A stretch of DNA of 64,000 nucleotides, taken from contig OX457026.1 in NCBI GenBank assembly GCA_949752745.1, positions 71,985,091 to 72,049,090 of the forward strand, in the 5' to 3' direction. Below, piece by piece: positions 1 through 46,395 of this stretch (position 1 is its first letter; every line of letters starts with the position of its first letter). The notes under the pieces are model-generated. The model did not search any database. It was not told the origin of the DNA and worked only from the letters and a program-made list of their open reading frames with translations. The position numbers and the translations under genes were made by a program. The stretch is from Protula sp. h YS-2021. Lineage: Eukaryota; Annelida; Polychaeta; Sabellida; Serpulidae.

Positions 1-232
1 GCAGGAGATTGGCTATTTCCAGTAAAACAGCTTTCCTACTCTTCACCTTTTACAGAATTGTGCGTCTATTATGGGAAGGCCAATGAAAATGTTCTAAATG
101 TATTTATCAACATAATGAACGCACTTTCAGGGCAAGTAAAACTGCATTCGGTTCACCTTCAAAGCTTTCGCTATTATGGTACCTGATTCAAGTAAACAAG
201 TTAAAAACTCGCTCTTTTTCAGACAAACATAC

Positions 233-312
233 CTTCAGCAAGGTTCCTTTGTGGGGATTCCAAAGTTTAAGCGATTTATCACTACCGCATGATAAGCAAT
301 AATTCCCATCGA
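233..312 (-). CDS. WDR83: WDR83 (MORG1) exon 2, partial gene
   Basis: WDR83 is a seven-bladed WD40 scaffold known from ERK signalling, EGLN3/PHD3 binding and spliceosomes. This exon encodes 26 complete codons containing 'DGNYCLSCGSDKSLKLWNP', almost identical to the first WD blade of human WDR83 as I remember it. It starts after a good acceptor (polyT then ACAG, AG at 314-313) and ends at AAG|GTATGT (donor 232-231). Its first two bases complete a Val codon begun in the exon at 10239-10161, so the phases match exactly. Exon 3 is not visible in bases 1-232 and must lie beyond the window, so only the first ~53 residues are present. The next intron is phase 0. Confidence 0.9.
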
Positions 313-320
313 CTGTAACA

Positions 321-1792
321 GAAAACAAAAAAATAGACTGGAAACTGATATAGTATACTCGAAAAACATTTTTTATCCCAGTTAACCTCACCGAATGCTG
401 AAAGTTTGATATATGTTTAAAATGAAACGCTTGCTAGACGTCCATTTTACATGCACAAATTTTGTCATCAGATACGAAATTCTTAATACATTTTACTAGA
501 AAATTATTATATTTCAATGAAAAAAAAGTTTTAATATATTTTAGGTTTTACACATGTTAAGGTTTTTATTTGCCACATTATATAACTGCATTTCAACAAA
601 TATATTTCATATGCCGATAAGTCTGGTTACGTATTAGTTAATCACATTTTTGAAGAGGACGAGAGAGGGTATGTAACTTGACTTGTTAGTATCTTAATCA
701 CTGAAACAGGTTATACTGTACGTCTATGTATCTGATCTCGAAGGTGGTCGCGACAAATAGGTTTACCGGGTCTGTATGGTGGTCACTAAATCACTAATTC
801 CCTACTTCACTGGTGATTTTTTTTTTCTCTGCTAACCGTCACTCCTCCCTCACCAACACCCCCATCCCCAACCACCTAATGTAGGTTTCGACTGTAAACG
901 TAAAGCTAACCTTTTACCCAACGTTACGGCAAGGGTCTGTGCCCTGAATGTAGTTTTCGCCATGATATATTTATTGTCTTCGTACCTTCCCATCGACCAA
1001 AAAGCACACTAGAAAGGCATTCTTCATAACTACCGGTGAGAGGGGGTGGATGAGCCGGAGAGAACATTTTGGTGCCAAAATGATGAGCTGCTTGTCAAAA
1101 CACAAGATATCTAAACACTTCCTTCTACGGGGGAAACAATGACAGGAAAAAACTGTCAAAAATCAACACAATAACTCAACAAAACTTATATAAACATAAG
1201 TAAAACTTAGCTTTTAAATTGTCAATAAAAATCGTGAAACGTCCACTAAACGTACTGCATTTTATTGGACAGGGTTTAAAGTAACGCAGACTTTAAACAT
1301 ATGTGTTGCTTCAATAATTTTGACAGCTGATAACTTATTGATAACTATACGAAAAATAGCTTTTTTATCTCTTTTAACTCATTCTTAGTGCTACAAATCT
1401 TCACATTTCGGAGAAATTCTCAATTTCTCAGTGTTTGTATCATTGAAAGTAAATTGAAAAAAGCAAAGAAGCTTTTAAAATGCATATTAAAATGAGATTT
1501 CAGGTTCAATACATTTTACATTTAAGCGAAAACTGGGTATTGCGCGAAAAATTTAATCGATTATTTATCAGTATAAAAGAAGATAAATTGCAGCACACTG
1601 TTCTCTTTTCACAATTTATACATACGCTAATTTTGACAAAATTTCGTAAAAAGGAACGCCACGATTTTTGCTTTGTGTGCCTGCAAAGCGATGCGAGGCA
1701 AAACAGCGCTGTACCTGTATAATATTCGACACTCTTTCTGGATGCATATATCGCCCCCCTCCCCCCGTTTTTGCCCAACAGCCAACCTCTAT
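321..1792. other. WDR83 intron 1, part left of the BEL element
   Basis: This is AT-rich intron sequence. I find no exon, RNA gene or complete repeat. Open frames here (for example 971-1159 minus and 1480-1722 plus) have no recognisable domains and no splice context. A pyrimidine-rich stretch lies at about 1753-1771. Confidence 0.6.
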
Positions 1793-1797
1793 GTAGT

Positions 1798-2162
1798 TGT
1801 AGTAAATATGAAGAGTTAATTGATTATCAATGATGTGAGTATTGAAATATTTGTGGTATATAATGTTAAGTTAACATCCCCAACCACGTGGATATTTATT
1901 TTATACCTGACATCCCTTTATTTCTGGCGTTTCCCATTTGCCACATGCTATTCTGCCGCGCTTGTCAATAGTTTTCAATATTTCACACTATGTTTGTTTG
2001 ACATCGGTTTAATGATTTATTTAGTACGAGTTTTGGTATGAATCTGATCTTTTGGAAGAGTTTGTGGCGAAATAAATACTCTGTCTGATTTGGATTCAAT
2101 TTGAATTTAACTCCGTTGCAAAACTACTAAGGCAGAATCATTTTGATTCCATTTATCCCACA
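1798..2162 (+). repeat. BEL 5' LTR (365 bp), promoter deleted
   Basis: It begins TGTAGTAAAT and ends TATCCCACA. It matches the 3' LTR except for two substitutions near 2015-2021 and a missing 47-bp block at about 2005-2008. The missing block contains the TATATAAA box retained in the 3' LTR. An AATAAA lies in the second half of both LTRs. Confidence 0.95.
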
Positions 2163-2225
2163 AAAGTACAAAATTAATGCAAAAAATTGGAACTGAAATA
2201 AATTAAAATGTGAACAAAACTCAAA

Positions 2226-3626
2226 ATGCCAATAGTTGAGCCTGACATCGCAAGCTTCAAAGTGACAGAGCTCAAGAGAATTTTAAGTGAAAAAGGACTA
2301 AAAACGTCAGGAAATAAGTCTGAACTAGTGCTGCGGTTGCGTGAGTACTATTCCACTAAAGAAGAAGATGTACAAGAACCAACGGAGGATCTGCAGGATT
2401 CTATTCTGCCCCACGACAGTGCTTCCCAGACAAGCAGCTCAACGAGTAGCGCACGTGCTCGAGCTGCTGCCCGTAAAGCCAGTTTAAAAGCCAAATTAGA
2501 AGCCTTAAAAGAAGAGGAACGAATACGCGCCGAACTAGCGGAGAAAGAAGCCCAACTTCGCTTTCATCAGCTTCAGACGGAGATCCAAGCTGTTTCTGCC
2601 GAGGAGCAGGTGTTTGCCGAATATGCAGAAGCTGCAGCTCCACAAGCCGCTATAGAAGGGAATGCTCCAGCTATTTCGCCTGAGCCCCCGCGTGTAAATT
2701 CAAATACGGCACAGGCTGCTACGATGCAAAGCATACATCCTCCTGATGTTCGCAGTAAGTTATCAGTTCCTACATTGACCACAACCGCACTGAATCCGGA
2801 TGCGCTAAGGTACGTGCCCAACTATCAAGTTTCGCCACAGAAGAACGATCTACCTCAGCTTTGCGATCCGGAAAGCAATCAAGTGCTTACACTTCAAAAC
2901 AACACCGGTGACATCAGAGCACAACAGCAGATGTTTGATATATTGAGTTTACCGAAGCCAGAGCTCTCTTCGTATGACGGTAACCCTATTGAATTTCATT
3001 TCTTCATGAATTCATTTGACACTTGCATTCATTCAACCAGCATAAGTGATGCCGCAAAACTAAATCGTCTTTTTCAACTGTGTAAAGGGAAAGCTCTAAA
3101 AGTCATCAAGTCATGTGCTCTTATGGATCCAGTTATGGGTTACTTAAAAGCTAGATCGCTTCTGCAAGAGCGCTTTGGTAATGACTATGTTATCTCAGAA
3201 GCATGGGTTACAAAAATCACGAGTGGTCCGCCAGTCAAGAAAAATAGCAAGGAGTCCTTGCAGGAATTTTCAGATGACGTTAGAAGCTGCACTGAGACTT
3301 TACGAGCCATGGGTCATTTGGACGAGGTGGACTCACGAGTGAGGCTAGTACAACTGGTAGAGCGGCTGCCTTACTACTTACAGGGGCGCTGGAGGAAACA
3401 AGCAATTGATGAATACGACAAAATAGGAAGATATCCAGGTACTGATGAATTTCTCAAGTTCTTAGAGAAAGTCTCACGCGAGGTTAGTGATCCGGTCTTT
3501 GGTATTCAGGAAGCAAAAGAAAGTAAAGGCTGTGGGAAGAAAATTAAGGCCTCAAGTTTCCATGTAGATGCAAAAGGAGGTAACGAATCAAATATCTCTA
3601 CTGCAAAAATGCTGCGTTGCCTGTAA
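2226..3626 (+). CDS. BEL Gag with N-terminal SAP domain
   Basis: This is an open frame of 466 codons starting 64 bases after the 5' LTR. Residues about 8-43 form a SAP motif (FKVTELKRILSEKGLKTSG then KSELVLRLREYY), a DNA/RNA-binding helix-extended-helix fold. Residues about 78-135 are Ala/Glu/Lys-rich and probably coiled coil. Residues about 235-425 resemble the DUF1759-type Gag core of BEL/Pao elements (PKPELSSYDGNPIEF, later LLQERFG). The frame stops at 3626, where the zinc-knuckle region continues in the next frame. The overlap lies around an A5 run near 3606, so a single-base indel is more likely than a real Gag stop, because BEL elements usually have one Gag-Pol frame. Confidence 0.9.
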   Translation: MPIVEPDIASFKVTELKRILSEKGLKTSGNKSELVLRLREYYSTKEEDVQEPTEDLQDSILPHDSASQTSSSTSSARARAAARKASLKAKLEALKEEERIRAELAEKEAQLRFHQLQTEIQAVSAEEQVFAEYAEAAAPQAAIEGNAPAISPEPPRVNSNTAQAATMQSIHPPDVRSKLSVPTLTTTALNPDALRYVPNYQVSPQKNDLPQLCDPESNQVLTLQNNTGDIRAQQQMFDILSLPKPELSSYDGNPIEFHFFMNSFDTCIHSTSISDAAKLNRLFQLCKGKALKVIKSCALMDPVMGYLKARSLLQERFGNDYVISEAWVTKITSGPPVKKNSKESLQEFSDDVRSCTETLRAMGHLDEVDSRVRLVQLVERLPYYLQGRWRKQAIDEYDKIGRYPGTDEFLKFLEKVSREVSDPVFGIQEAKESKGCGKKIKASSFHVDAKGGNESNISTAKMLRCL

Positions 3627-5952
3627 TGAAAAGCCCATGTTGCACCAATATGACGTGTTTAAGAAGATGCCTGTTGTTCAGCGTCTAAAATTTGCCAAAG
3701 ACAAGCAACTCTGTTTCAACTGCTTAAAAGAGGCTAAGCATTCAGCAAAAAACTGCAGATTTGATCGAAAGTGTGGCATCGACGGCTGCACCATGAAGCA
3801 TTCTAGGCTGCTTCACCATGCCTTCAAATCCAAAAGGAAAGATTCGCCGAAAGTGGAAGATACTGGTACGCAAGATGACTCCCTCGTCTTGAATACACAA
3901 GCTGGGTCCTACCAGAGTTCAAAGGTCGTATTGCCCATCGTGTCTGTACTTGTAAAAGGTAAGGACACCGAAAACATTGTCAAAACCTACGCTCTACTAG
4001 ACTCTGGTAGCAATAAGACATTTTGTTCTGCAGCCCTTCTAAATGACCTCGGAATTGAAGGTAAGCAAACCAGTCTCAAGATTTCTACCTTAAATGACGG
4101 AAAAGAAGTGCCTGTAGAAAAGGTCAACTTATCAGTTTCAAGTGTTTCAAAAAACTGTGCAATCGAGTTGTCAGAGGTGTACGCTTTGAAAAAATTTCCG
4201 TCGCTTGTATCGAGTACTGCTTTTAGCACAGACGTTGACTGTTGGGATCACTTAAGAGATCTGGAAGTTCATGTAAATGATGGCATAAAGGTGACGCTAC
4301 TCATTGGTCAGGATAATCCTCAAGCTTTGCTGCCATTGGAGCTGGGGCGTGGCTCAGTTGGTGAGCCATATGGAGTACGGACACCTCTGGGATGGACTAT
4401 CAACGGTCCAGTGCAAACAACAGAAGATGACACAGGTGTGTGTAACTTTGTCAATTGTGCCATCAATGCTAAGCGTCTCGAACAACAAGTCGAACAGTTT
4501 TGGAAGCTTGAGAACAGTGCTTTATCTGCTACTGAGCTATCTCTTAATGATAAGAGAGCATTGCAGATATGGAACGACAGTGTACATCTACGAGGTGATC
4601 ATTACGAGCTAGATGTTCCATTCAAATCGAAAGAGCCACAACTGCCAAACAACAAGTGTGTTGCTGAAAGGCGATTGCCTTACCTGGGGCGAAGGCTAAG
4701 TAAGGATGACCACCTCTTATCAAGGTATAAAAATGAAATTGAAACACTACTGAAGAAGGGTTACGCGGAAAAGGTTTCGGATCCTGAAGGGCCACTGGGG
4801 CTTACCTGGTATATACCACATCATGCTGTGCTGAATGTCAACAAGCCCGATAAGGTGAGAATAGTTCATGATTGCGCAGCTGAATATCGCGGAACCTCAT
4901 TAAACAAGGAAGTTTTACAAGGTCCTGACTTGACAAACAGACTACTTGGCGTTCTGTTACGATTCAGAGAGAGCAAGTATGGTATGATGGCTGACTTTGA
5001 AGCAATGTTTTTCCAAGTGAAGGTAACACCACATCACAGAGATGTACTCCGGTTCCTTTGGTGGCAGGAAGGGGATCCAAAAAAGGCGCCAGAAGTCTAC
5101 AGGATGACGGTTCACCTATTCGGTGGTATCTGGTGTCCAAGTATCTCCAGTTATGCGTTGAAGAAGACTGCTGAAGAGTTTCAACAAAGGTTTGACAAGC
5201 AAACTGTAGATGCTGTACTACATAATTTCTATGTTGATGACTTGTTACAGTCAGTTGTTTCAGAGAGTGCTGGCATCCACATGGCTAAAGAGCTTCGAGA
5301 CCTGTTGTCGCTGAGGGGTTTTAACTTAACGAAATGGGTCAGCAACAGTCGAAAGATCATCGAGTCGATACCGAAAGACTACAGGGCCAAAGGAATACAA
5401 AATCTAGACCTGCAGCAATCCACGTTGCCGGTTGAAAGAGCGTTAGGTGTGGAATGGGCAACTGAAGAAGATGTCTTCCGCATTACGGTGAGACAGCCCC
5501 AAAAAGATCCGATGTATACTCGTCGAGGCTTGCTTAGCGTCGTGTCATCCTTGTATGATCCACTGGGTTTTGTTTGTCCTTACGTACTTCTAGCAAAGAA
5601 GCTGTTTCAGAGTGAATGCAAGTTGAAGAAGGGCTGGGATGACAGGCTGGAAGATACAACGATCAAATCATTTGATTCCTGGCTGCACAATCTGGACATC
5701 TTCAGGTACTTGCAGATTCCTAGATGCTTCGTCGCAAACGTGAGTTCTGAAGTAATCGATGTCCAGCTACATCACTTCTGCGATGCATCAAGCGAGGCGT
5801 ACGGTATGGTTTCCTACCTGCCTGCTACAGATAGTACAGGTACTGTCCATTGCTCGTTCGTCTTTGGAAAATCAAGACTAGCGCCAATTAAGCAAGTGAG
5901 CATACCTCGCCTTGAATTATGTGCGGCTGTTACAGCAGTTCCAAGTGAATAG
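3568..5952 (+). pseudogene. BEL Pol part 1: zinc knuckles, protease, RT, start of RNase H
   Basis: This is a 794-codon open frame whose true coding content begins about codon 14. In order it has Cys/His knuckles (CFNCLKEAKHSAKNC at residues 49-63, then a CX4CX3HX4H cluster), a retropepsin-like protease with active-site DSG at residues 145-147 (near base 4000; DUF1758-like), a BEL/Pao reverse transcriptase with FYVDD at 5228-5242, and RNase H beginning around HHFCDASSEAYGM (Asp at 5782-5784). The frame ends prematurely at 5952 inside RNase H; the remainder continues one frame over from about 5912. The break coincides with one extra base near 5940. Confidence 0.9.
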
Positions 5953-6463
5953 CATGATCGCAAAGGAACTCACAATTGAAATCAACAACACGTTTTTCTG
6001 GTCTGATAGTACAATCGTGTTGGCTTATATAAACAACTCGGATAAAAGATTTCACACCTTTGTAGCTAACAGACTTACCTTGATTCACGACGGTTCAAGT
6101 CCAGGTCAATGGAGGTACGTGAGTTCACAAGATAATCCGGCGGATGATGCCTCCAGAGGTACCAATGCAAACAAAATGTCTGGCAGATGGCTTCATGGAC
6201 CGATGTTTCTTCAGAATTCCGAGGATGAGTGGCCAAGACATCCAGATGTCTTGAAGGAACTCAACGACGATCCAGAAGTGAAGCACTCAGTGACTAGCTG
6301 TTCAGTTGAAGCGGCGTCTGATCGGGAGCAGACTTCTATTTATCAGCTGCTCCACAGGTTCTCCGACTGGTTAAAGCTCAAACGGTCTGTAACGTGGATT
6401 TTGCGGTTCCTCCTTTGGCTAAAGTCCAAGGAAGTTTGGTTTACTTACAGTGCAAGAGCTTAA
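5912..6463 (+). pseudogene. BEL Pol part 2: RNase H C-terminal half and linker
   Basis: This 183-codon frame continues RNase H (FFWSDSTIVLAYINNSDKRF, then YVSSQDNPADDASRG, both typical of BEL RNase H). It follows a +1 frame change near 5940 and ends at 6463, where coding shifts frame again. Neither boundary has start or stop context expected of a separate gene, so this is one segment of a broken polyprotein. Confidence 0.88.
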
Positions 6464-7805
6464 TGCAGCAGAGTGTGCAATTGTAAAGTATGTCCAGAGG
6501 TCTGCCTACAAAAGGGAAATCAATGGCCTGAAAAAGAATGAACATGTAAGCAAAGGTAGTTCACTATACCACCTAGAGCCCGTACTGATTGATGACATTC
6601 TGAGGGTAGGTGGACGATTGCGGCACGCGAACATCACGGCTGGTTCGATAAATCAAACTCTGCTGCCGAGAGACCACTTTGTATCGAAGCTACTTGTGCG
6701 CTACATTCATGAAGCAAAAGCCAGACATTGTGGAACTGAATATGTCTTGTCTCTACTTCGTACCAGCTACTGGATACCGAAGGTGAGACGCCTTATCCAG
6801 AATATCATGCGCAGCTGTGTTATATGCAAACGATTGTACGGTAATGCAGCAAGTCAGAGAATGTCAAACCTTCCTGCCGACAGGGTTACACCGAATGTTT
6901 CACCATTTGCGAACGTTGGTATCGACTGCTTTGGACCTTTTCTAGTGAAAAGGGGCAGAAGTCATGAAAAGCGGTACGGCTGCGTTTTCAAATGTTTGAC
7001 CATCCGAGCTATTCATCTTGAAGTCCTGCAATCATTGGAGTCTGACGCATTCATTAACGCGCTGATCAGATTCATTTCCAGACGCGGTACCCCTAAAGTA
7101 GTTCGTACAGATAATGGGACAAACTTTGTCGGGGGATCTCGGGAGTTCCTCGATGCTATGTGCCGCTGGAATGAATCAAATAAACTTCAGAAACACTTGA
7201 AACATGATCAGATACAATGGATTTTTAATCCACCTGCTGCATCCCACATGGGTGGGGTATGGGAAAGGCAGATTCGGACAGTTCGTAAAGTCATGAGTGC
7301 GATAACGCGCAACGTTGTGCTGGATGATGAGCGATTAGCGACAGTGTTCTGTGAGGTTGAATCAATCGTCAATAATCGTCCGATTACGCGATGTTCGAAT
7401 GAGCCAAATGACATTGACCCGTTGACGCCAAATCACTTATTGCTTTTGCGCGGAAATGCAGCTCCCCCGGTAGATCGCTTCATAAAATCGGACATATACA
7501 ACCGGAGGTGGAGACATGCTCACTACCTAGCTGATATGTTTTGGCGACGCTGGATTCGAGAATATCTACCTACAATTCAGCATCGTCAAAAGTGGCTGGC
7601 AAGTACTCGCGATTTCTGCGTCGATGATATCGTGCTGGTGATGGATGAAGTGACAATAAGAAATTGCTGGCCTATGGGAAGAGTGGTGCAAGTCAACCGA
7701 GGCAGAGATGGTCATGTTCGATCTGCGGTTGTTCGAACAAAATCAACCAGTCTGACACGCCCTGTGACAAAGCTTTGCCTTCTAGAATCTTGTGATCGAA
7801 GCTAA
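6450..7805 (+). pseudogene. BEL Pol part 3: integrase and DUF5641 tail
   Basis: This 451-codon frame begins with an integrase zinc-binding region (HX3-type His pair in LLVRYIHEAKARHCG, then CVICK). The catalytic core shows GIDCFGPF, the second Asp in RTDNGTNF (near 7110), and a candidate Glu in SHMGGVWERQ. The C-terminus (RWRHAHYLADMFWRRW to PVTKLCLLE) matches the DUF5641 domain that ends many BEL polyproteins. The stop at 7803-7805 is probably the natural end of Pol. The frame break with part 2 lies at about 6430-6460. Confidence 0.92.
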
Positions 7806-36835: not shown

Positions 36836-37640
36836 TGTATTTTAATGTCCGTATACTGGGAAGTTGCTGTGTTTTGTATCAGCAATGTTTGGTTATACCT
36901 CTTCTATCGGTGGTATGTATTTGTTCACGTGTAAGTTGAGGGATATTTCCCTAAAATCATTAAAAACCCATAATTTTGTCCCAATTACTGTCTCATCCTT
37001 GTATATATAGTTCATGCAGTATGTACCCTGTGTGCACCCAAGGCCACATTTTTCATGCCTTGTGTTTCTTAAAATTATACATTAAAGGTGAAAAAAAAAA
37101 CAGGCATCGGCAAGCTGTCAAATGTTTTGTTTATCTTCCGGGTTTGTTCTACCCAGCACGCCATTCGACCGTAGTTATAAAATGGCTGACTTCTGTAGGA
37201 ATCTGTCGATTCTGTATATATCCGTTTACACTGTAGGCCCATTGGAGATTCCGCGAAAATAATAATCAGTAAGTTGGGGGGGGGGGGCTACTTTTTGTAA
37301 TATATGTCCGCTCTGTATTTATACATAACACGTCGATCTCCTCAGAGGTCATCTGTTTTATAACAACGCCTCATTGTTTCCGCATAAATTTACGCATGCG
37401 CATGAGAGGAAAACAAAAGATGTCTGCCTGTGGGAATTTGTGGTTATTGCTAGAACTTTTTTTTTTTTTGTTTTTAGGGAATTTTATTGTGCACAGCCAT
37501 ATTCGAGTATGCGCTGCGTGGGCATAGACAATAAGGAGCACTCACAATACAATATATATATGCATCTTTCACAAACGCGACGTTTTCTAACAATAACTTT
37601 GCTTATCAAAAATCACGATTATGACGGAAACAAACAAACA
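36836..37640. other. Intergenic with repeat fragment
   Basis: Bases 37245-37375 match 9348-9470 beside the BEL element. A G-run of 13 lies at 37278-37290 and poly-T at about 37459. No gene is seen. Confidence 0.55.
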
Positions 37641-37671
37641 TAGCAACTTATAAATGAGTCTCGATCATCTA

Positions 37672-38322
37672 TCAATATATCAAATCCGCTTCTAAGTTTG
37701 AAAACACTTCGCCAAAATAGGTCCATTTTAATTTTAATTTATCTTCAGGTAATGTTTGCATGCCTGCGTAATATCGTAGTTTTGCGTTTCTAATAAACAC
37801 GTTCTCGTGAAAATTTTCCTCATTGACCCTAAACTGATATATATGGTATTTTATTAACAAAGAGAGGTTATCCTCTGTAATATTATCTTTTCCAAGTAAA
37901 AAATCCAATTTCTCAAAATTAAAAGAATTTAGCTTCAATATGCTTAAGCATCTTCTTATAATTTCTCTGGCTTTTTGACAGTCCCAAAAGAAGTGTATTA
38001 TCGTATCCGAGGTGTTACAGTACTTACATGCATCGGATTCTAAAATTTTCCAGTCCTTTTTCTTCTTGTTAGTTGGTATTATATTATGAATGAGTTTCAA
38101 TTGCAGGGCCAAAAGATAGGTTTCTTTAGTGCATTTTCTGCAAAGTAGCAAGCTACGTAGAATCCGTGATTCTTCTAGCATACCTGCATTCGCCCAGAAC
38201 ACAATACTCACCGGAGGCTCTACAATTTTATTTCTCAAGACCATGTGGTAATCTTTACACTTAGCTTTCTTTATGTTGATTAACGAGTCACGTATCTTAA
38301 AAATTGGGTCAGAGCAATCCAC
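37672..38322 (-). pseudogene. LINE ORF2 C-terminal Cys-rich region
   Basis: A 216-codon frame with LLLCRKCTKET, then CKYCNTSDTIIHFFWDC, the zinc-binding CCHC-like motif (zf-RVT type) at the C-terminus of L1/Tx1 ORF2 proteins. It is linked to the upstream segment by a frame change near 38450. The stop at 37674-37672 is probably the natural end of ORF2. Confidence 0.85.
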
Positions 38323-38442
38323 TTTATAATTATCTGTAATGTATCTATTGTTTTCTCTGTTTTAACCATTTGCCGATATATATTTTAAGACCATCGCACA
38401 GTAAAAAATTGACACGCAAGTCATATCTAGCTTGGAGCTCTG

Positions 38443-39293
38443 TCAACGAAAAAACACTTTTTTATCTTTACTTAATAGGTCCTTAATATACAGTATGACT
38501 TTTTCGTGCCAGTGCTTCCAGTAGAGTGACCTGCCGTCAATTGTTATTTCTTTATTGTTCCATAATACACCACTGTATCGGTCTTGGTTATGCAATTCAC
38601 TAAAATAGAGTAACATCTCTTTATAAAAGGAGGATATTTGAAGACTTCCAGCGTCGAAATTCGAGTGCAAAATAAGGGGCAATCCCCCGTATTCGTCAAA
38701 TTCACTATGTATTATGGCATTGCTAACGTTTTTAACCCACAGTCTAGACAACCATGCCAACCTTAATGATTTTTGCATAACAATTAAATCTGGTGATCGA
38801 ATACCCCCTGCATCAAAGTCCCCGATCAAGGATTTATGCTTGATCTTACTGGGTTTATTGGACCACATGAAAGCATTTATCAACGACTGGGCCCGGGCCA
38901 GATCTGCGTGTGCACAAGAGACGTTGCTCAAGCTGTATATTAAATTTGACATTCTCATAGTTTTAGATATGTTAACTTTCCCCAGCAGTGTAAGACCCCT
39001 CTGACTCCATAAATTCAAACGTGTTGCAAGTTTTGTTATCTTATCCAAAATGTTTACTTTGTTACACTTTTCCGTTGCATGACCTACTTCGATACCCAGC
39101 GTATTGAAGCTACCCGAAGCAACCTTTAAATTAAAAACAGGCTCCGGTTTTGTTCGCCATGGCCCTATATATACCAGCAGAGATTTTTCTATGTTAACTT
39201 TCAAACCGGAATATCTCGGAAACGCCTCGTAAGCTGTAACACATAACCGAGAGAGCACACGTCTTTTAATAAACACGTTGCGTCATCTGCAAA
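38443..39293 (-). pseudogene. LINE ORF2: RT motif C to thumb region
   Basis: It begins with the RT active-site FADD (39293-39282), one frame off from the preceding palm segment. It continues through YSGLKVNIEKS, then LGIEVG and LNLWSQRGLTLLGKVNI, typical of L1/Tx1 elements after the active site. The frame ends at 38443 after a frame change in a T-rich run. Confidence 0.85.
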
Positions 39294-39961
39294 AAGAGAG
39301 ATCTTATACTCTGAATAAACAGCGTTGTCGACAATGGACACCCTTGTCTAACACCACGTTGTACTTCGAACCAGCCACACGAATAACCATTATTCATAAC
39401 AGTGCTAGAGATATTATTATAACATGTAGCTACCCATCTCCGAAACGAAACACCAAAATTAAAATATTCCAAAACTTTATGCATGAATTTTCACTCGATA
39501 CTATCGAATGCTTTTTCGAAATCAAAAAGCAAAAGTAGGCCTGTCTGCTGTTTCTTGTTTACTTTATTAATGACATCCTGGATTAGCCTAATGTTTTCTC
39601 CTATGTAGCGTCCCTTAACAAAACCACTTTGATTCTCGTGGACCAGTTTTGGCAAGATATTTTCTGTTCTTATTGCTAAAGTTTTAGTGAGGATTTTGTA
39701 GTCAACATTTGTGAGGGATACTGGTCTCCAGTTTTTAATAAGCTCTGGATTTTTACCACGTTTTTGCAGAAGGGTTATAATACTTCGCCTTTGGGACTGC
39801 GAAAGCTCACCTTGTTCAGTAGCATAATTAAACGTCTGTATTAGCAAGCCCCCTAATTGCGGCCAAAAGGCTTTATAAAAATCCGGACTCAAGCCATCAC
39901 AACCAGGGCTTTTACCGTTCGACATGCGATCCAAAGCCTTTTTACATTCGGCTACAGACAC
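39266..39961 (-). pseudogene. LINE ORF2: RT fingers and palm, nonsense and deletion
   Basis: The segment covers RT motifs 0-B: MSNGKSPGCDGLSPDFYKAF, KNWRPVSLTNVDYKILTK, LFDFEKAFDS and VQRGVRQGCPLS. A TGA at 39493-39491 replaces the Trp usually found after 'FDS.E'. Just after GCPLSTTLFI the usual ~28 residues before FADD are missing, together with a frame change. Confidence 0.9.
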
Positions 39962-41296
39962 AGGGCCTTCACAAAATATTCTATCTTCTTCTGAAAGCTT
40001 TTTTATGCCTCGAGAACTAAAAATTTTATCGAGATCCGTGTTGTTTATATCAGGGTGTGTCGTTTGATATAGTGTACAATGAAATCGCTCTAGCTCACGG
40101 AGGATAAGAATGGGATTTGATATGATGTCATTATTAACTTTTAATCGATCTACTGTTTTCTTATCATAAACTTCTTTTTCCTTGTTATAAAAGTATTTGT
40201 TACTTTTTTCATTTTTTTCTATATATTCAACACACGGCTTCTTGTCCTTTGTAGGTATTAATATCCGAAAGTATGCTTTTACAATTTAGGTATTCAGCTT
40301 CTTCGTCTGGACTTAATTCTGTTTGGCAAAGTTTCGAATAAAGCTTGTCACATTTCAATAGCAAATATTGTTCTAACAGACGCTTTTCCTTAGCAATTTT
40401 CTTCGAGATTTCCATTGATATCGTTAAAATCTCGAATTTAATAAGGTCCCAGAATACTCGCTTATCTTTTGATTTTAAAAATTCTTTTCTATTTTTCTCA
40501 ATGAGGCTTATAATAGCTTGTCTATAGTCTTGATTTAATAAAAGACTATTATTAAGCTTCCAAAATCCTGGACCTCTATCGTACTTAACCTTTTCATCTA
40601 ATTCTAGAGAGATTAGTTTATGATCCGTGTTTATGCTCTCAAAAAACTTTGACTGCTTATGGTTTGCCAACAATTTTTTACTAATTAAAAAGAAATCGAG
40701 CCTGCACATGACTCTTGGTGTATTTCTGGACCATGTGTACATCAGCAGATCCGGATGCTTCTCCCTCCAAATGTCGACTAAATTGTGGGTTTTTATCAAT
40801 TCCTTTAAAGTGCGAGCCGATGTTTGGCTAACTGTTGCCCCAAACTTTTATCTTTCGGCTCCAATGTTAGATTAAAATCCCCTGCCATGATTACATTCTC
40901 CAATGATACCCGAGTCATCAGATTTGCTGAAAGTTGTTCAAAACATGTAACCCTCTCACAATCCAAGTTGGGAGCATAGATATTAACACAAGAATAATAT
41001 ATGTTAATAATTTCTACTTCATTAACGTCAAGTCGCCCTTCTTTATCAGCCAAGTTTTTGCGTACCTTTAAACCCTTCTTAAACAAAGTCATTGTTCCTC
41101 TTGCCTTAGAGGTATAATGGCTAAAAGTTACATTGCCCTCCCATTCTTTTTTCCATTTTTCTTCAATATCCGGAGAACTGTGACTTTCTTTAATGAAGAG
41201 AACATCAAATTCCTTGCGCTTTAGAAAAAAGAAAATCTCTCTACGCATTTTTGCATTACGCAGCCCTGTTACATTTAAGCTATAGTACTTAACCAT
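39962..41296 (-). pseudogene. LINE ORF2: APE endonuclease and linker
   Basis: The first 163 codons (41296-40805) start MVKYYSLNVTGLRN and contain the APE motifs FIKESHS and MAGDFNLTLEP. After a frame change near 40805 the frame 40799-40227 continues the endonuclease (RLDFFLIS, NTDHKLISL) and linker. After another near 40230, coding continues into the RT. The ATG at 41296 is the probable ORF2 start. Confidence 0.88.
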
Positions 41297-42555
41297 TTTT
41301 TATAATATTTCTAAGGTTACATAAGCCACTATGCATATTAATAGATATTTTCGTTTCTAAAATTACGCTTGTCGACTTAATATGACTGTGCTGTTTGAGA
41401 CCAAAAATTATTACAACATAAACATTGACACAAAACCTATGTACAGTAGATAAAGCATAAGCAGAAATGTATGAATCGAGATATGAATCACCAAACATAA
41501 TATGGTTTGGTTAGCGTAAAAAGGTTTTGAGCATTTATATAATTTAATGTAAATGCCATTGTTGAGGTTGCAAAACTTCTATATTAGAACATTAGAGTAT
41601 TTTATTGTTATCTTGATTAATTTAGGTTTGGGTCAATTCGTGGAAAACCTCAAACAGCATACACCTTTGTAGTAAACGGTAACGCATTGCACTGTAAAAC
41701 GGGATAAAGAGAATGCTATGTTTAGACCCAATTGAGGTAACTGCATGTTGGGTTTTCCTATTTAAATACGTAACCTTTTTCTTGCAAAAGAGGGGTTTAT
41801 CGAAAACCCAAACAACACCTATGTAAATAGGCTGAATGTATGCACCTCCCACATGCTCGCTAGTGAATACCATCTAGAAGGCTTTAGAAAACATGTGAGA
41901 AAGGTCGATTTAGTATGGAATTTTGGTCCTTGTAACCGTTCACAAATGCCGCGGAAAGTAACCCACCTGAAATATCCCGCTCACAGAATGCGGCAGAGGT
42001 GATCGGCAGGAGTTAAAAGAACAAAACGCCCTCCCTTTTCTGAAGCCAAATTGATCTCAAAGACGTGAGTTTGTTTTCGCCTTCCTGCATGTTTTATCAT
42101 GCAAGCTGATCACCGTCAAGAATCAATAAATATATTCAAGTTAGTCTACGACATAAATTACAATATTGCTTTCCATAGTACATCAAACTTTACGTACATC
42201 CTACCATTCGTCCATCATAACCCTCACGTGCCTTATTTAATCAATCAATCACCTGGTGTCACATACACACCTTGTTGTTTATCCACTGCGATGGCATTCA
42301 AAGTTATGCGTAGTATCAAATTATGAACTGAACGAGGGGTGTTACCAAAATCTCTGAGGGACCAAACCAACTCCAAGTTAAAAAAAAACTAAAGCGCTCA
42401 AGGAGCCACTCTTTGGCTTAAGGTTAAAGTATTACATACATAATAGCAGATATAATTATAATTAAGCCCGGCATCAAATCAAACATTTGACAGCTGCGTG
42501 GTTACCTTTTCTAAAATGATACCCAGATGATTTTTCCCGTGGAATTGCAAATGGT
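41297..42555 (-). other. LINE inter-ORF spacer
   Basis: There are 1.26 kb between the ORF1 stop and the ORF2 start with no long frame in the element's orientation. It is unusually long for an L1/Tx1 spacer; it could be a secondary insertion, but no boundaries are clear. Confidence 0.5.
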
Positions 42556-44137
42556 CTAATTGAGGGTCGTCCATCCGTTTTCCAGTTGAGAAAAAACTGT
42601 TGAGTTGAGAAACTGTTGTGTGTATGTGACACCAGTTGAGAAAGGATTGCATTCTAATAGGCGTCTTGGAGAAGTTGCAATCAGCTCTTCTTTTAGATGG
42701 TCGTTCTGTGAAAACTTGGCGAGAATTGCCTTCTCCATGATAATAAGGAGACTATTTTGCTCTGGGTTGTTCCTAGCCTGGAGTTTTCTTCCTAGTCGCT
42801 TCACTGCCACTGGGTTTGATTCTCTCATGATAGCCTGTGCTGTTATAAGGTCCCTGCTGTTTCTGGCCTTACAATATTGGTATGCTTGCTCAACACAACA
42901 AAATGTTGTCCCTCCGATAGTAAAATCGGCCTTATAGAAATTGCTTAACGGCGAGAGGTATCCATAGAAGCGCACCTGAGTATCGGTTTTCACAGTGTGA
43001 CCAGTATCTGCCAGCCCGGCCTGATTTATATTGTCTACCGTGTATAACCGTCCCTTAAATTTGAGCTTGTCCCGCACCATTTTGGCATATGGATCAAGAC
43101 GTTTTGCGTTGGGAAGCGACTTTACGAGATAATCGCGCCTTTGTGTGACTGCCTGGGGCACATCCTGTCTTACAAAAATGCCTGAACCTTTGAGAATCTG
43201 GGAATTCTGTAAACTACGGTTTTTTTCTGCCACTGACTTAAATCGTGCCACTATCCCCGCGGGCTTTGATAGATCGCTTTTAAGTATGCGATGAGCGATG
43301 TCTATCGAGTTTGGCATGTTAATATGCATTTTTGTTCGGATTATAGCGTCGAGGACGTCCTTACAGTTCTCACCTTCTCTCTCCTGAACCCCTTCAAAAA
43401 CAAGGTTTACCTTACAGGAATTGGTTTCCAAGCGCTCGATGTCTCCTTTTAGAATCCGATAAAAATCGGCCGCGGAACGTCGCTGATCCTCACACTGCTG
43501 TTTAATTGCCGCTAATTGATTAGCAAGTTCCGCATTACTATTTCCTTGCTGGTCAGCAGGACTGCGGTCTTCCAGAACCTGTATCCTTTTCTCCAGGCTA
43601 TTGTCAAGGCTCTGCATTGAATCCAGCCTTTTACTATTATCCACCGCTGATTGTTGGTAGGTGTCTAACACTGTTGCCAAAGCGTCGATTCTGTCGTTTA
43701 TTTTGCACATTTCAGCAGATAGCTTATTGTCGATAATGTCATTCAGGTTTTCAGTAAGGCTCAGTTCTACCTTTTTAGCAATGCTCAACAAATCTTTTTC
43801 TAATGTTTTCTGGACGTTTTTCGCTACTTTTGTTATAATATCGTCTAAACTATTTTCGAGTTTTTTCTCAAAATAAACTAGCATATCACAGTCTTCCCAT
43901 CCATCCGCTTTAATAGACTGAGTTGTATTTTCACTTCGTTTCCTTTTTGTCTGCCTCACACTCCTTTTAGTCTTTGGACTTTTTCCTTTGGCCTTCTTGC
44001 GAAGATTGTAAGTCGGCTGTAGATTTCACTATTACATCACAAATATCGCTTTGATTATCCTTATCTAGTATGCAATATTCCTGATTTGTGCTTTGGTCAT
44101 CTTGAGATGGTCCCTGTTCCCTGCTTATGTCCGCCAT
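42556..44137 (-). pseudogene. LINE ORF1: coiled coil, RRM-like, CTD, NADAR
   Basis: The frame 43959-42556 gives 467 intact codons; its first displayed codon is GTG, and coding clearly extends upstream. The likely start is the ATG at 44137 (MADISREQG), with a frame change near 44000. Numbered from 43959, residues about 25-165 are Leu/Lys/Glu-rich coiled coil. Residues 175-315 resemble L1 ORF1p RRM and C-terminal domains (VNLVFEGVQEREGE, GIVARFKS, VRDKLKFKGRLYTV). Residues about 329-450 (bases 42975-42610) are a NADAR/YbiA-like domain: RFYGYLSPLSNFY, FCCVEQAYQYCKA, then AILAKFSQN and TSPRRLLE. NADAR enzymes cleave N-glycosidic bonds in nucleotide-like substrates; Glu357 corresponds to the conserved Glu of E. 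coli YbiA. NADAR is not a standard LINE domain. Confidence 0.85.
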
Positions 44138-44170
44138 TATTCCAACTCTGTGTATAGTAATAAAATCCAC

Positions 44171-46395
44171 TCAAAACGTCATAAATTTTGCGTCCATTTC
44201 ATTGTTAAATATAAATTTTATATCCCACACAAAGCACTTATATATTCATATACACACTGGCCTCATTATTATATTAATAGCAACCTCTAACACTACATTT
44301 TTTGAATATTTTCTCTCTACCTAAAAACACGTCTTCACATATTGAAATCGATCCACCAACATTGCTAGAACTTGTTCTTTTATGAAAATATCAAGACATG
44401 TACAGTCTTCAACAACACATTTTCTTTGAAGGTACTCCATAACACTTCATAAATCTAGGTATGTATCTTAATATACTGCAATGTCGCCACAGAGGTGCCT
44501 CAAAGCGAGCGTAGTTGACTTGCATATAGTTATATAGCGAGAATTGGAAGCGATCCGCCGAAACTCAGTAGCGGATGGTTCTTGGAGCTACTCTTCCTTA
44601 CGCTTACTCGGTATATCTTTCTATCAGTACGTCGAAACCCTGTAGCGTACCCTGCTTTGAGCCATGTGCTAAGTACAAGTCTCAAGTGACTTTCCTATGT
44701 AGCCAGGGGTGACTGGTTATGCATCGATCCGGATAAGCCGAATCACGCTTTGGGTGTTTCAAATAAAATGCGCAAGAATTTTGAATTTCGAAAGCAAAAA
44801 CAGCTCATACTAAGAACATACCAGAGATTGAAACTTAAAACGATTTTATAAAACTTTTAATCAATTTTTAAAATAGAATACCGGTTGTTAAAAACACGAT
44901 TGTTCTTTGGTGAAAGAGAAATTTGACATTTAGGCGAAATTTCTGTATCATTTCTTTCATTTCTTTACCCGGTTAGTTTGTGTTCGAAACGCAGAATTTT
45001 GCGCACTTTATTTGGAACGCCCAGTGTGATTTGACTTATTAGATAACAAGCAGTCCTGCATGATCTGCGGTGTTCCTATGACAGCAAATGTCATAGCTAC
45101 TGTACGAGTACAGACGTCAATTTTTTTATCCCGTAGAAGCTCCCAGTCAGCTCTTCCTTAGATAACTTTGTATATCTCTCTGTCAGAGCTACGACGCCTT
45201 CAGTTGTTCCCCTAATAGGGTAGCTTCAAGAAAACCTAACCTAAGGAGACACTCGGGTCAACTTCATATATGTTCTGAGGCAAGAATCATGCATACCAGT
45301 TTCTATATTTGATACATTACTGAAAGTTCATACACACACTAGCCTTTTTGCAGACCAAGCGCAATTTTTAATGGACTGCATATCTTTTACTTCTTCGTTA
45401 ATGTGTAGGAATGTTAGCCTCCACACTCGCCTGTTTAATGTTTGCTTACGTTCCGCGCTTTAAATGTCATGTGTCAGATGACCAATAATTTAGATAAAGG
45501 GACTATTGATTACTTGCAAAATATATATTCAAATCATTAGTGAATTCAAAATCAGGCATAAAATGATTCTGTGCTACCACAGTATTCAACTTCTACTTCC
45601 TGCATACTTTTTGAAATATCGATTCAAAAGTTTTTGGTGGAGAATTACAAGAGTTACTATCACTTTTTCACGTAGTAAACTGTGATGCATGGATGTAAAC
45701 AAATGCCATTGCTTGTTATTTCCGTATTCTGGTTTTGTCCGTATTCTTTTCTTTTAAAAAGGCGTAACACAAGATGTATATCATTGCCGTTGTTCTTTGA
45801 GGGCCTTTGGCAAATGCCAATAAAGACTTCTAGGTCGTTGAAGCTTGCACAACATCGCCACAGAGGTGGATCAGAGCGAGCGCAGTTGACTTGCATATCG
45901 TTATAAAGTGAGGATTTGAAGTGGTAGCCGATCCCCAGTAGCGAGTCGCTTCTTGGAGTTACTTATCTCGGCACACGGCACGGGTCAGTGGCCTTGTTTT
46001 AGAAAGAGTGTATCACTTTTCTAATTTTTCTATTACATATCCTTGGCACCATACCCTGTGAGAAGTACATATATCTCTTACTATTGTAACATAAAATCAG
46101 ACTTCCCAACGAAACCTCGAAAAGGCCTTTATTTTTTTCGACATCCCCTTAAATCCATGAAAAAACCTGAAAACCTTTATTTTTTTCCGGAGGGTTTTGT
46201 TTAACATTGTTTTGAGGGAGAAAAACATATGTTGGCTTTTTTCAGACCAGCCGACTTCGTCAGGATGGTCTAATTATATCAGTAGGAGGCATCCATCGTC
46301 AGTATGTACACATATACATATGTAAACCTCGACGACTTTGATCGAATTCCTTTCAAATTTTACATAAATGTTCCCTAGGAGCTCTCCTCTGGACT

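Follow-up and report, generated by a model that had tools for sequence, protein, structure and literature searches.

We analysed a 64,000-nucleotide stretch of the genome of the annelid Protula sp. h YS-2021 (contig OX457026.1, positions 71,985,091 to 72,049,090; the window, to which all coordinates below refer), in which the first open reading frame (ORF1) of a long interspersed nuclear element (LINE) carries a NADAR domain at its C-terminal end. The initial annotation, made from the sequence alone, had recognised this join from motifs in a 467-codon frame on the minus strand. That frame is present and the motifs are found in it, the conserved Glu being residue 357. The ORF1 features are as follows (RRM, RNA recognition motif; CTD, C-terminal domain).

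42556-44025, minus strand: main open frame of ORF1, 489 codons from stop to stop, 467 from the GTG at 43959 to the stop at 42556
43967-44137, minus strand: 5' piece of ORF1 from the ATG at 44137, 56 codons and then a stop, in a frame different from that of the main piece
43417-43881, minus strand: coiled coil, residues 27-181 (predicted helices 27-132 and 141-181)
43165-43407, minus strand: RRM, residues 185-265 (predicted structure; best Foldseek matches to human LINE-1 ORF1p)
42988-43155, minus strand: CTD, residues 269-324 (predicted structure and Foldseek)
42634-42987, minus strand: in-frame part of the NADAR domain, residues 325-442 (Pfam PF08719 and Foldseek match to 8bau)
42488-42610, minus strand: C-terminal part of the NADAR domain in another frame (profile positions 114-155, E = 2.4e-8, piece L009)

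The NADAR domain of the window ORF1 and the LINE around it

The Pfam profile PF08719 (NADAR) matched residues 336-440 of the window frame at 66.5 bits, the cut-off being 35.1 bits (E = 4.5e-18), so the lack of a significant match, which the initial annotation had named as fatal to its proposal, did not occur; the same profile matched 27/27 chosen relatives. A phmmer search of the PDB sequences with the window frame gave two matches below E = 0.01, both to NADAR proteins (8bau, 4.5e-7; YbiA, 2b3w, 6.6e-6), and no other match below 0.5. A profile built from 14 NADAR domains of relatives found only 8bau (5.4e-31) and 2b3w (2.4e-23) in the PDB at E ≤ 0.01. The structure comparison that had been proposed as a further check agrees: the predicted NADAR part resembles 8bau (Foldseek E = 8.7e-7), and the body, a coiled coil followed by an RRM and a CTD of LINE-1 fold, has the architecture of an L1-type ORF1p, its best Foldseek matches being human LINE-1 ORF1p (2ykp, 2ykq, 2yko). 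Identity with the human protein is 17%, and it gave no match on the NADAR part of the model; conversely, the solved NADARs 8bau (Phytophthora), 2b3w (YbiA) and 8bat (Geobacter) have no fused RNA-binding body, unlike the window ORF1p. The Transposase_22 profile (PF02994) matched 1/27 relatives at E ≤ 0.01 (0.0028) and did not match the window frame at E ≤ 1, and weak Pfam matches on the coiled coil were discounted as coiled-coil noise. The annotated order of coiled coil, RRM, CTD and NADAR is supported, but the main frame holds only part of the NADAR domain. The window ORF1 is also broken at its 5' end, where the frame from the ATG at 44137 stops at 43967-43969.

The ORF1 lies in the LINE copy described by the following features.

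37459-44360, minus strand: full-length LINE copy of ~6.9 kb (ORF1, long spacer, ORF2 and a 3' end with an A-rich tail), delimited by sibling comparison
37446-37458, no strand: target-site duplication, copy 1, 13 bp, at the A-rich end (exact repeat of 44361-44373)
44361-44373, no strand: target-site duplication, copy 2, 13 bp, at the 5' end (exact repeat of 37446-37458)
41300-42478, minus strand: ORF1-ORF2 spacer of ~1.2 kb, 94% identical to that of sibling L039 over its length
40805-41299, minus strand: ORF2 piece, endonuclease (best PDB matches L1 endonuclease, E = 1.4e-7; Pfam Exo_endo_phos, E = 0.0016, under the cut-off)
39491-40285, minus strand: ORF2 piece, reverse transcriptase (RVT_1, E = 5.2e-14; human L1 ORF2p, E = 9.5e-27)
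37672-39282, minus strand: further ORF2 pieces (37672-38361, zf-RVT-like match, E = 3.6e-5, under the cut-off)

The window copy is a full-length target-primed insertion, because its 5' end is common to siblings, a 13-bp repeat flanks it and its 3' end is A-rich. The 5' end at 44352-44360 is common to six of the eight siblings compared (L010, L011, L013, L014, L034 and L039); L012 ends at 44256, and L036 spans only 41087-43163. L039 is 94.7-97.7% identical to the window copy from 37458 to 44355 and is flanked by its own, different 17-bp repeat. Its ORF1 is one open 556-codon frame; ORF2, in two frames (957 and 257 codons), follows after 1.2 kb. The ORF2 of the window copy is split over five frames of at least 150 codons between 37672 and 41299.

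A spacer of 1.2-1.55 kb between ORF1 and ORF2 is long for a LINE. A nested insertion was ruled out as its origin: the gap is also present in L039, and therefore is a feature of the element; L040 and L041 have gaps of 1.25 and 1.55 kb, respectively. Between the three NADAR-LINE families (window and L039; L040; L041) the spacers had no blastn similarity. No frame longer than 105 codons was found in any of the four spacers, and no Rfam family matched loci L039, L040 or L041 at gathering scores. The apurinic-type endonuclease, a reverse transcriptase nearest to L1 (among PDB sequences only), the A-rich end and the target-site duplication are those of an APE-type (apurinic endonuclease-type) LINE. 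Of the earlier L1/Tx1-like label, the L1 part is borne out by the ORF1 body and ORF2; the Tx1 part would hold only by analogy with families described in PMC12477816. Elsewhere in the window (2214-7805, plus strand), four long frames, overlapping or adjacent, encode what we take to be the gag, protease, reverse transcriptase and integrase of a BEL/Pao-type element.

Distribution of the ORF1-NADAR join

Twenty database proteins matched the window ORF1 at E ≤ 0.001, and 19 of them have a whole or partial NADAR behind the ORF1 body; P0020 is the one that lacks it. A query with NADAR only gave 101 matches; an ORF1 body or CTD stands upstream of 30, and the other 71 are free-standing, have an upstream part too short to tell, or have one with no ORF1 similarity. 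A profile of ORF1 minus NADAR, built from fused proteins, gave 19 matches. NADAR is present in 12 of them, and P0016 has a truncated NADAR start; these 13 scored at least 152 bits, and the six without NADAR at most 93 bits. No relative was found in IMG/VR with the window protein as query.

The genome (863 Mb) was searched with RRM and CTD alone. We used the best 150 of 152 matches and set aside 32 that ended before query position 135 of 148; the remaining 118 are the best-scoring ORF1s and represent 118 separate places, and more distant ORF1s lacking NADAR may exist. NADAR was found in 116/118, 96 from the lists of NADAR matches (excluding 21 NADAR matches in frames of at least 824 codons and three others) and 20 among 22 fetched loci with NADAR at E ≤ 1e-3. 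The two exceptions are L066, with a weak NADAR (8e-3), and L082, with none. These database and genome matches rule out a fusion limited to the window copy, and the other outcome that the initial annotation had named as refuting, namely relatives that end ORF1 before NADAR, did not occur, since most related copies carry the domain. As to whether NADAR is always in frame with ORF1, the body and most of NADAR share one frame in 26/38 loci (L001-L038), and decayed copies are often frame-shifted between the two. Six copies (L019-L024) have an open ORF1-NADAR frame of 599 codons, three of them identical over body and NADAR; judged from their sequences, they are a recently active relative.

The surroundings of NADARs in this genome were surveyed with 150 scored matches from 2193 first-look candidates, so that the counts are a lower bound. 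A LINE ORF1 body lies upstream in 106/150 (53 + 41 + 12 from three comparisons), two of them (C5:15631594 and C3:37903900) on thin evidence, the last ~25 CTD residues only. With stricter limits the group of 53 comprised 50 outright, one by separate evidence and the two on ~25 CTD residues. A further 31/150 comprise 21 NADARs in frames of at least 824 codons, many with an identical score, among which L042 was looked into, and 10 that resemble the NADAR-TatD protein of L042 (38-96% identity). Nine of these 10 begin upstream of the domain; L106 also adjoins pol, and L110 was assigned to the type by an 81% match. The last 13/150 were assigned to none of these groups. At L042, a Ty3/Gypsy-like pol (reverse transcriptase, RNase H and integrase; 1-3462) is followed on the plus strand by a 979-codon frame (3489-6425) with NADAR at residues 112-255 and a TatD-type DNase at 706-976. 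No long terminal repeats (LTRs) were found in 14 kb around it. The L042 type appears to represent an independent acquisition of NADAR, here by an LTR-type element.

Selection, origin and active-site residues

Selection was estimated on the 26 of loci L001-L038 that have body and NADAR in one sufficiently long frame (24 unique), using a GY codon model with the protein tree held fixed and the frame-shifted tails of four copies masked. Across families, omega was 0.110 over the 153 NADAR codons and 0.096 over the 148 codons of RRM and CTD. Fixing omega at 1 (kappa at 2) lowered the log likelihood by 218 and 252, respectively. Within subfamilies, the Nei-Gojobori ratio of nonsynonymous to synonymous rates (dN/dS), pooled over five subfamilies with non-independent pairs and a codon bootstrap, was 0.25 (0.21-0.31) for NADAR and 0.32 (0.26-0.39) for the body; in the four subfamilies other than the window's it was 0.19 and 0.31. 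Purifying selection, which the initial annotation had put forward as a test, is thus found across families but not inside the window's subfamily, where the NADAR ratio is 1.59. Among 17 proteins, the median pair identity was highest in NADAR (0.34), followed by RRM (0.29), CTD (0.26) and the coil (0.15). Body and NADAR distances in these proteins are correlated (Mantel r = 0.81, p = 1e-4), with r = 0.40 among the 107/136 pairs of body identity below 0.35. We concluded that the fusion and the conserved domain are almost certainly real, and from these comparisons the join looks kept by natural selection.

The trees bear on whether NADAR was captured once or several times. In a NADAR tree of 104 rows, fused rows fall mainly in two groups with free-standing NADARs (rows P0026-P0089) between them. 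The fused/unfused label changes 20 times on this tree, at least 11 of them forced by starred branches, and many of the rows lacking the fused label are short pieces that are possibly just cut off. On the ORF1-body tree, a single clade of fused rows was not rejected (approximately unbiased test, p-AU 0.275).

Alignment to NADAR enzymes places the putative active-site residues of the window copy at the following codons.

42889-42891, minus strand: Glu357, equivalent to E43 of Phytophthora NADAR
42868-42870, minus strand: Lys364, equivalent to K50
42652-42654, minus strand: Glu436, equivalent to E125

In the numbering of the Phytophthora enzyme, E43, K50 and E125 correspond to E88, K95 and D171 of the E. 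coli C7 protein, and K75 to K115 (PMC11543638). We counted residues in 25 database proteins, selected among fused proteins whose domain is whole, and in 24 genome proteins. The YbiA-subfamily triad E43/K50 (or Arg)/E125 is complete in the window copy, in 25/25 database proteins and in 24/24 genome proteins. Lys occupies the K75 position in 19/25 and 24/24, respectively, and the D130 residue is present in 22/25 and 23/24, the single gap being the window copy; the W133 position is aromatic or His in all 49. The Asp at the D171 position that is a hallmark of DarT1-NADAR antitoxins was not found, the residue being Glu (E125 type) in 49/49. When the count was widened to 50 fused proteins, and where the residue is present, the first Glu was found in 49/50, Lys or Arg in 49/49 and the second Glu in 45/45; the single Glu exception, P0016, is cut off inside the domain.

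Possible role of the NADAR domain in the element

The initial annotation had left open whether LINE-NADAR fusions were described. They are, briefly, in a 2025 paper: among the Tx1 LINEs of Crassostrea gigas in Repbase, several families have an ORF1 that appears to hold a YbiA-family NADAR, for which RNA processing was suggested (PMC12477816). The fusion as a kind is therefore already known. For the Crassostrea elements, the passages compared here report neither counts nor analyses of selection or of the active site, and our results add breadth, selection, structure and active-site counts. No other report of a LINE-NADAR fusion was found among the matches listed in open-licence PMC texts. The same paper describes a NADAR in Pol of Ectocarpus Gypsy elements; these too are retroelements that acquired a YbiA-type NADAR, but of the LTR type, whereas the window LINE carries it on an RNA-coating protein.

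In the account that we favour, the ORF1p of this LINE lineage would consist of two parts, a coiled-coil/RRM/CTD body and a C-terminal NADAR hydrolase. The L1-type body should trimerise and coat the element RNA, and would thereby keep the hydrolase on the ORF1p-RNA particle. Host transferases would place ADP-ribose on guanines of the element, either in its RNA or in single-stranded cDNA at the insertion site, and NADAR would strip it and so shield the element from host ADP-ribosylation. Other NADARs hydrolyse guanine-N2 ADP-ribose (PMC11543638), and the guanine-modifying CARP-1 was cloned from a clam (title cited in PMC11543638); erasure of pierisin or CARP-1 marks by NADAR is an assumption by those authors' own statement (PMC11543638). 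What the domain acts on and how the element gains from it are inferences, and we give the whole account a probability of about 0.55. By analogy with other NADARs, the domain is probably an active hydrolase; that element nucleic acid is its main substrate we hold more tentatively, at somewhat less than even odds.

Several observations weigh against this account. The adenine-side residues Y84, D86, W89 and R93 of 8bau are mostly changed in the fused proteins; because the catalytic residues are conserved and these differ, the chemistry looks kept and the grip on the adenosine end changed, and the substrate or binding mode may differ from that of 8bau. NADARs also process riboflavin-pathway intermediates (PMC9503650), so the substrate cannot be read from the fold alone. 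Some ORF1 relatives lack NADAR (P0020, P0131-P0136 and L082). No host guanine transferase came to light, in an analysis that includes no completed search for one. In the window copy the domain is broken, profile positions 114-155 lying outside the main frame, and in its subfamily NADAR has 51 nonsynonymous and 9 synonymous changes over 6 pairs (body dN/dS 0.38); this absence of visible constraint fits dying copies or relaxed selection.

The altered adenine side together with the conserved catalytic glutamates would also suit an active hydrolase with another substrate, such as soluble ADP-ribose or NAD-derived signals, or ADP-ribosylated host or particle proteins. For phage NADARs the proposed substrates are soluble ADP-ribose derivatives, but for NADARs of eukaryotic RNA viruses mainly macromolecular marks (PMC9503650), and a fixed position beside RNA-binding domains would be odd for a soluble substrate; we regard this alternative as unlikely, though the strongest of those considered. 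A pure binding role, in which NADAR would recognise ADP-ribose, poly-ADP-ribose at DNA breaks or RNA and so aid ORF1p targeting or RNA folding with catalysis irrelevant, is improbable: attachment to an RNA-coating protein and the variable adenine side agree with such a role, but both catalytic glutamates in 49/49 proteins are more than binding alone demands. A functionless passenger, caught once or more, could explain the ratio of 1.59 in the window's subfamily, but this reading is already disfavoured, and very improbable, given the omega of 0.110 across families, the pooled 0.19 in the four other subfamilies (from non-independent pairs), the rank of NADAR as the best conserved ORF1p region and its presence in 116/118 matches. 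Chance similarity or an assembly artefact, to which the frame breaks of the window copy might point, is refuted by the same join at many separate genome places and in database proteins, and by the single open frame of L039.

Beyond the favoured account of an ORF1p-borne eraser, a wider proposal can be made, with considerable doubt: that an entire lineage of animal LINEs has long possessed, as a fixed part of its ORF1p, the ability to strip ADP-ribose from nucleic acid, exerted on the element's own RNA or cDNA; that hosts accordingly place ADP-ribose on retroelement nucleic acid as a defence; and that another kind of retroelement in this genome, the Ty3/Gypsy-like pol with NADAR-TatD, acquired NADAR independently. 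In this genome a LINE ORF1 body precedes 106/150 scored NADAR matches, which suggests that many of the NADAR genes recorded for animals may be ORF1s of transposons. This bears on surveys of metazoan NADARs; PMC11125620, which records NADAR in molluscs among other animals, contains no word starting with "transpos". If the domain is active, the use of nucleic-acid ADP-ribosylation by animals against retroelements would become directly testable.
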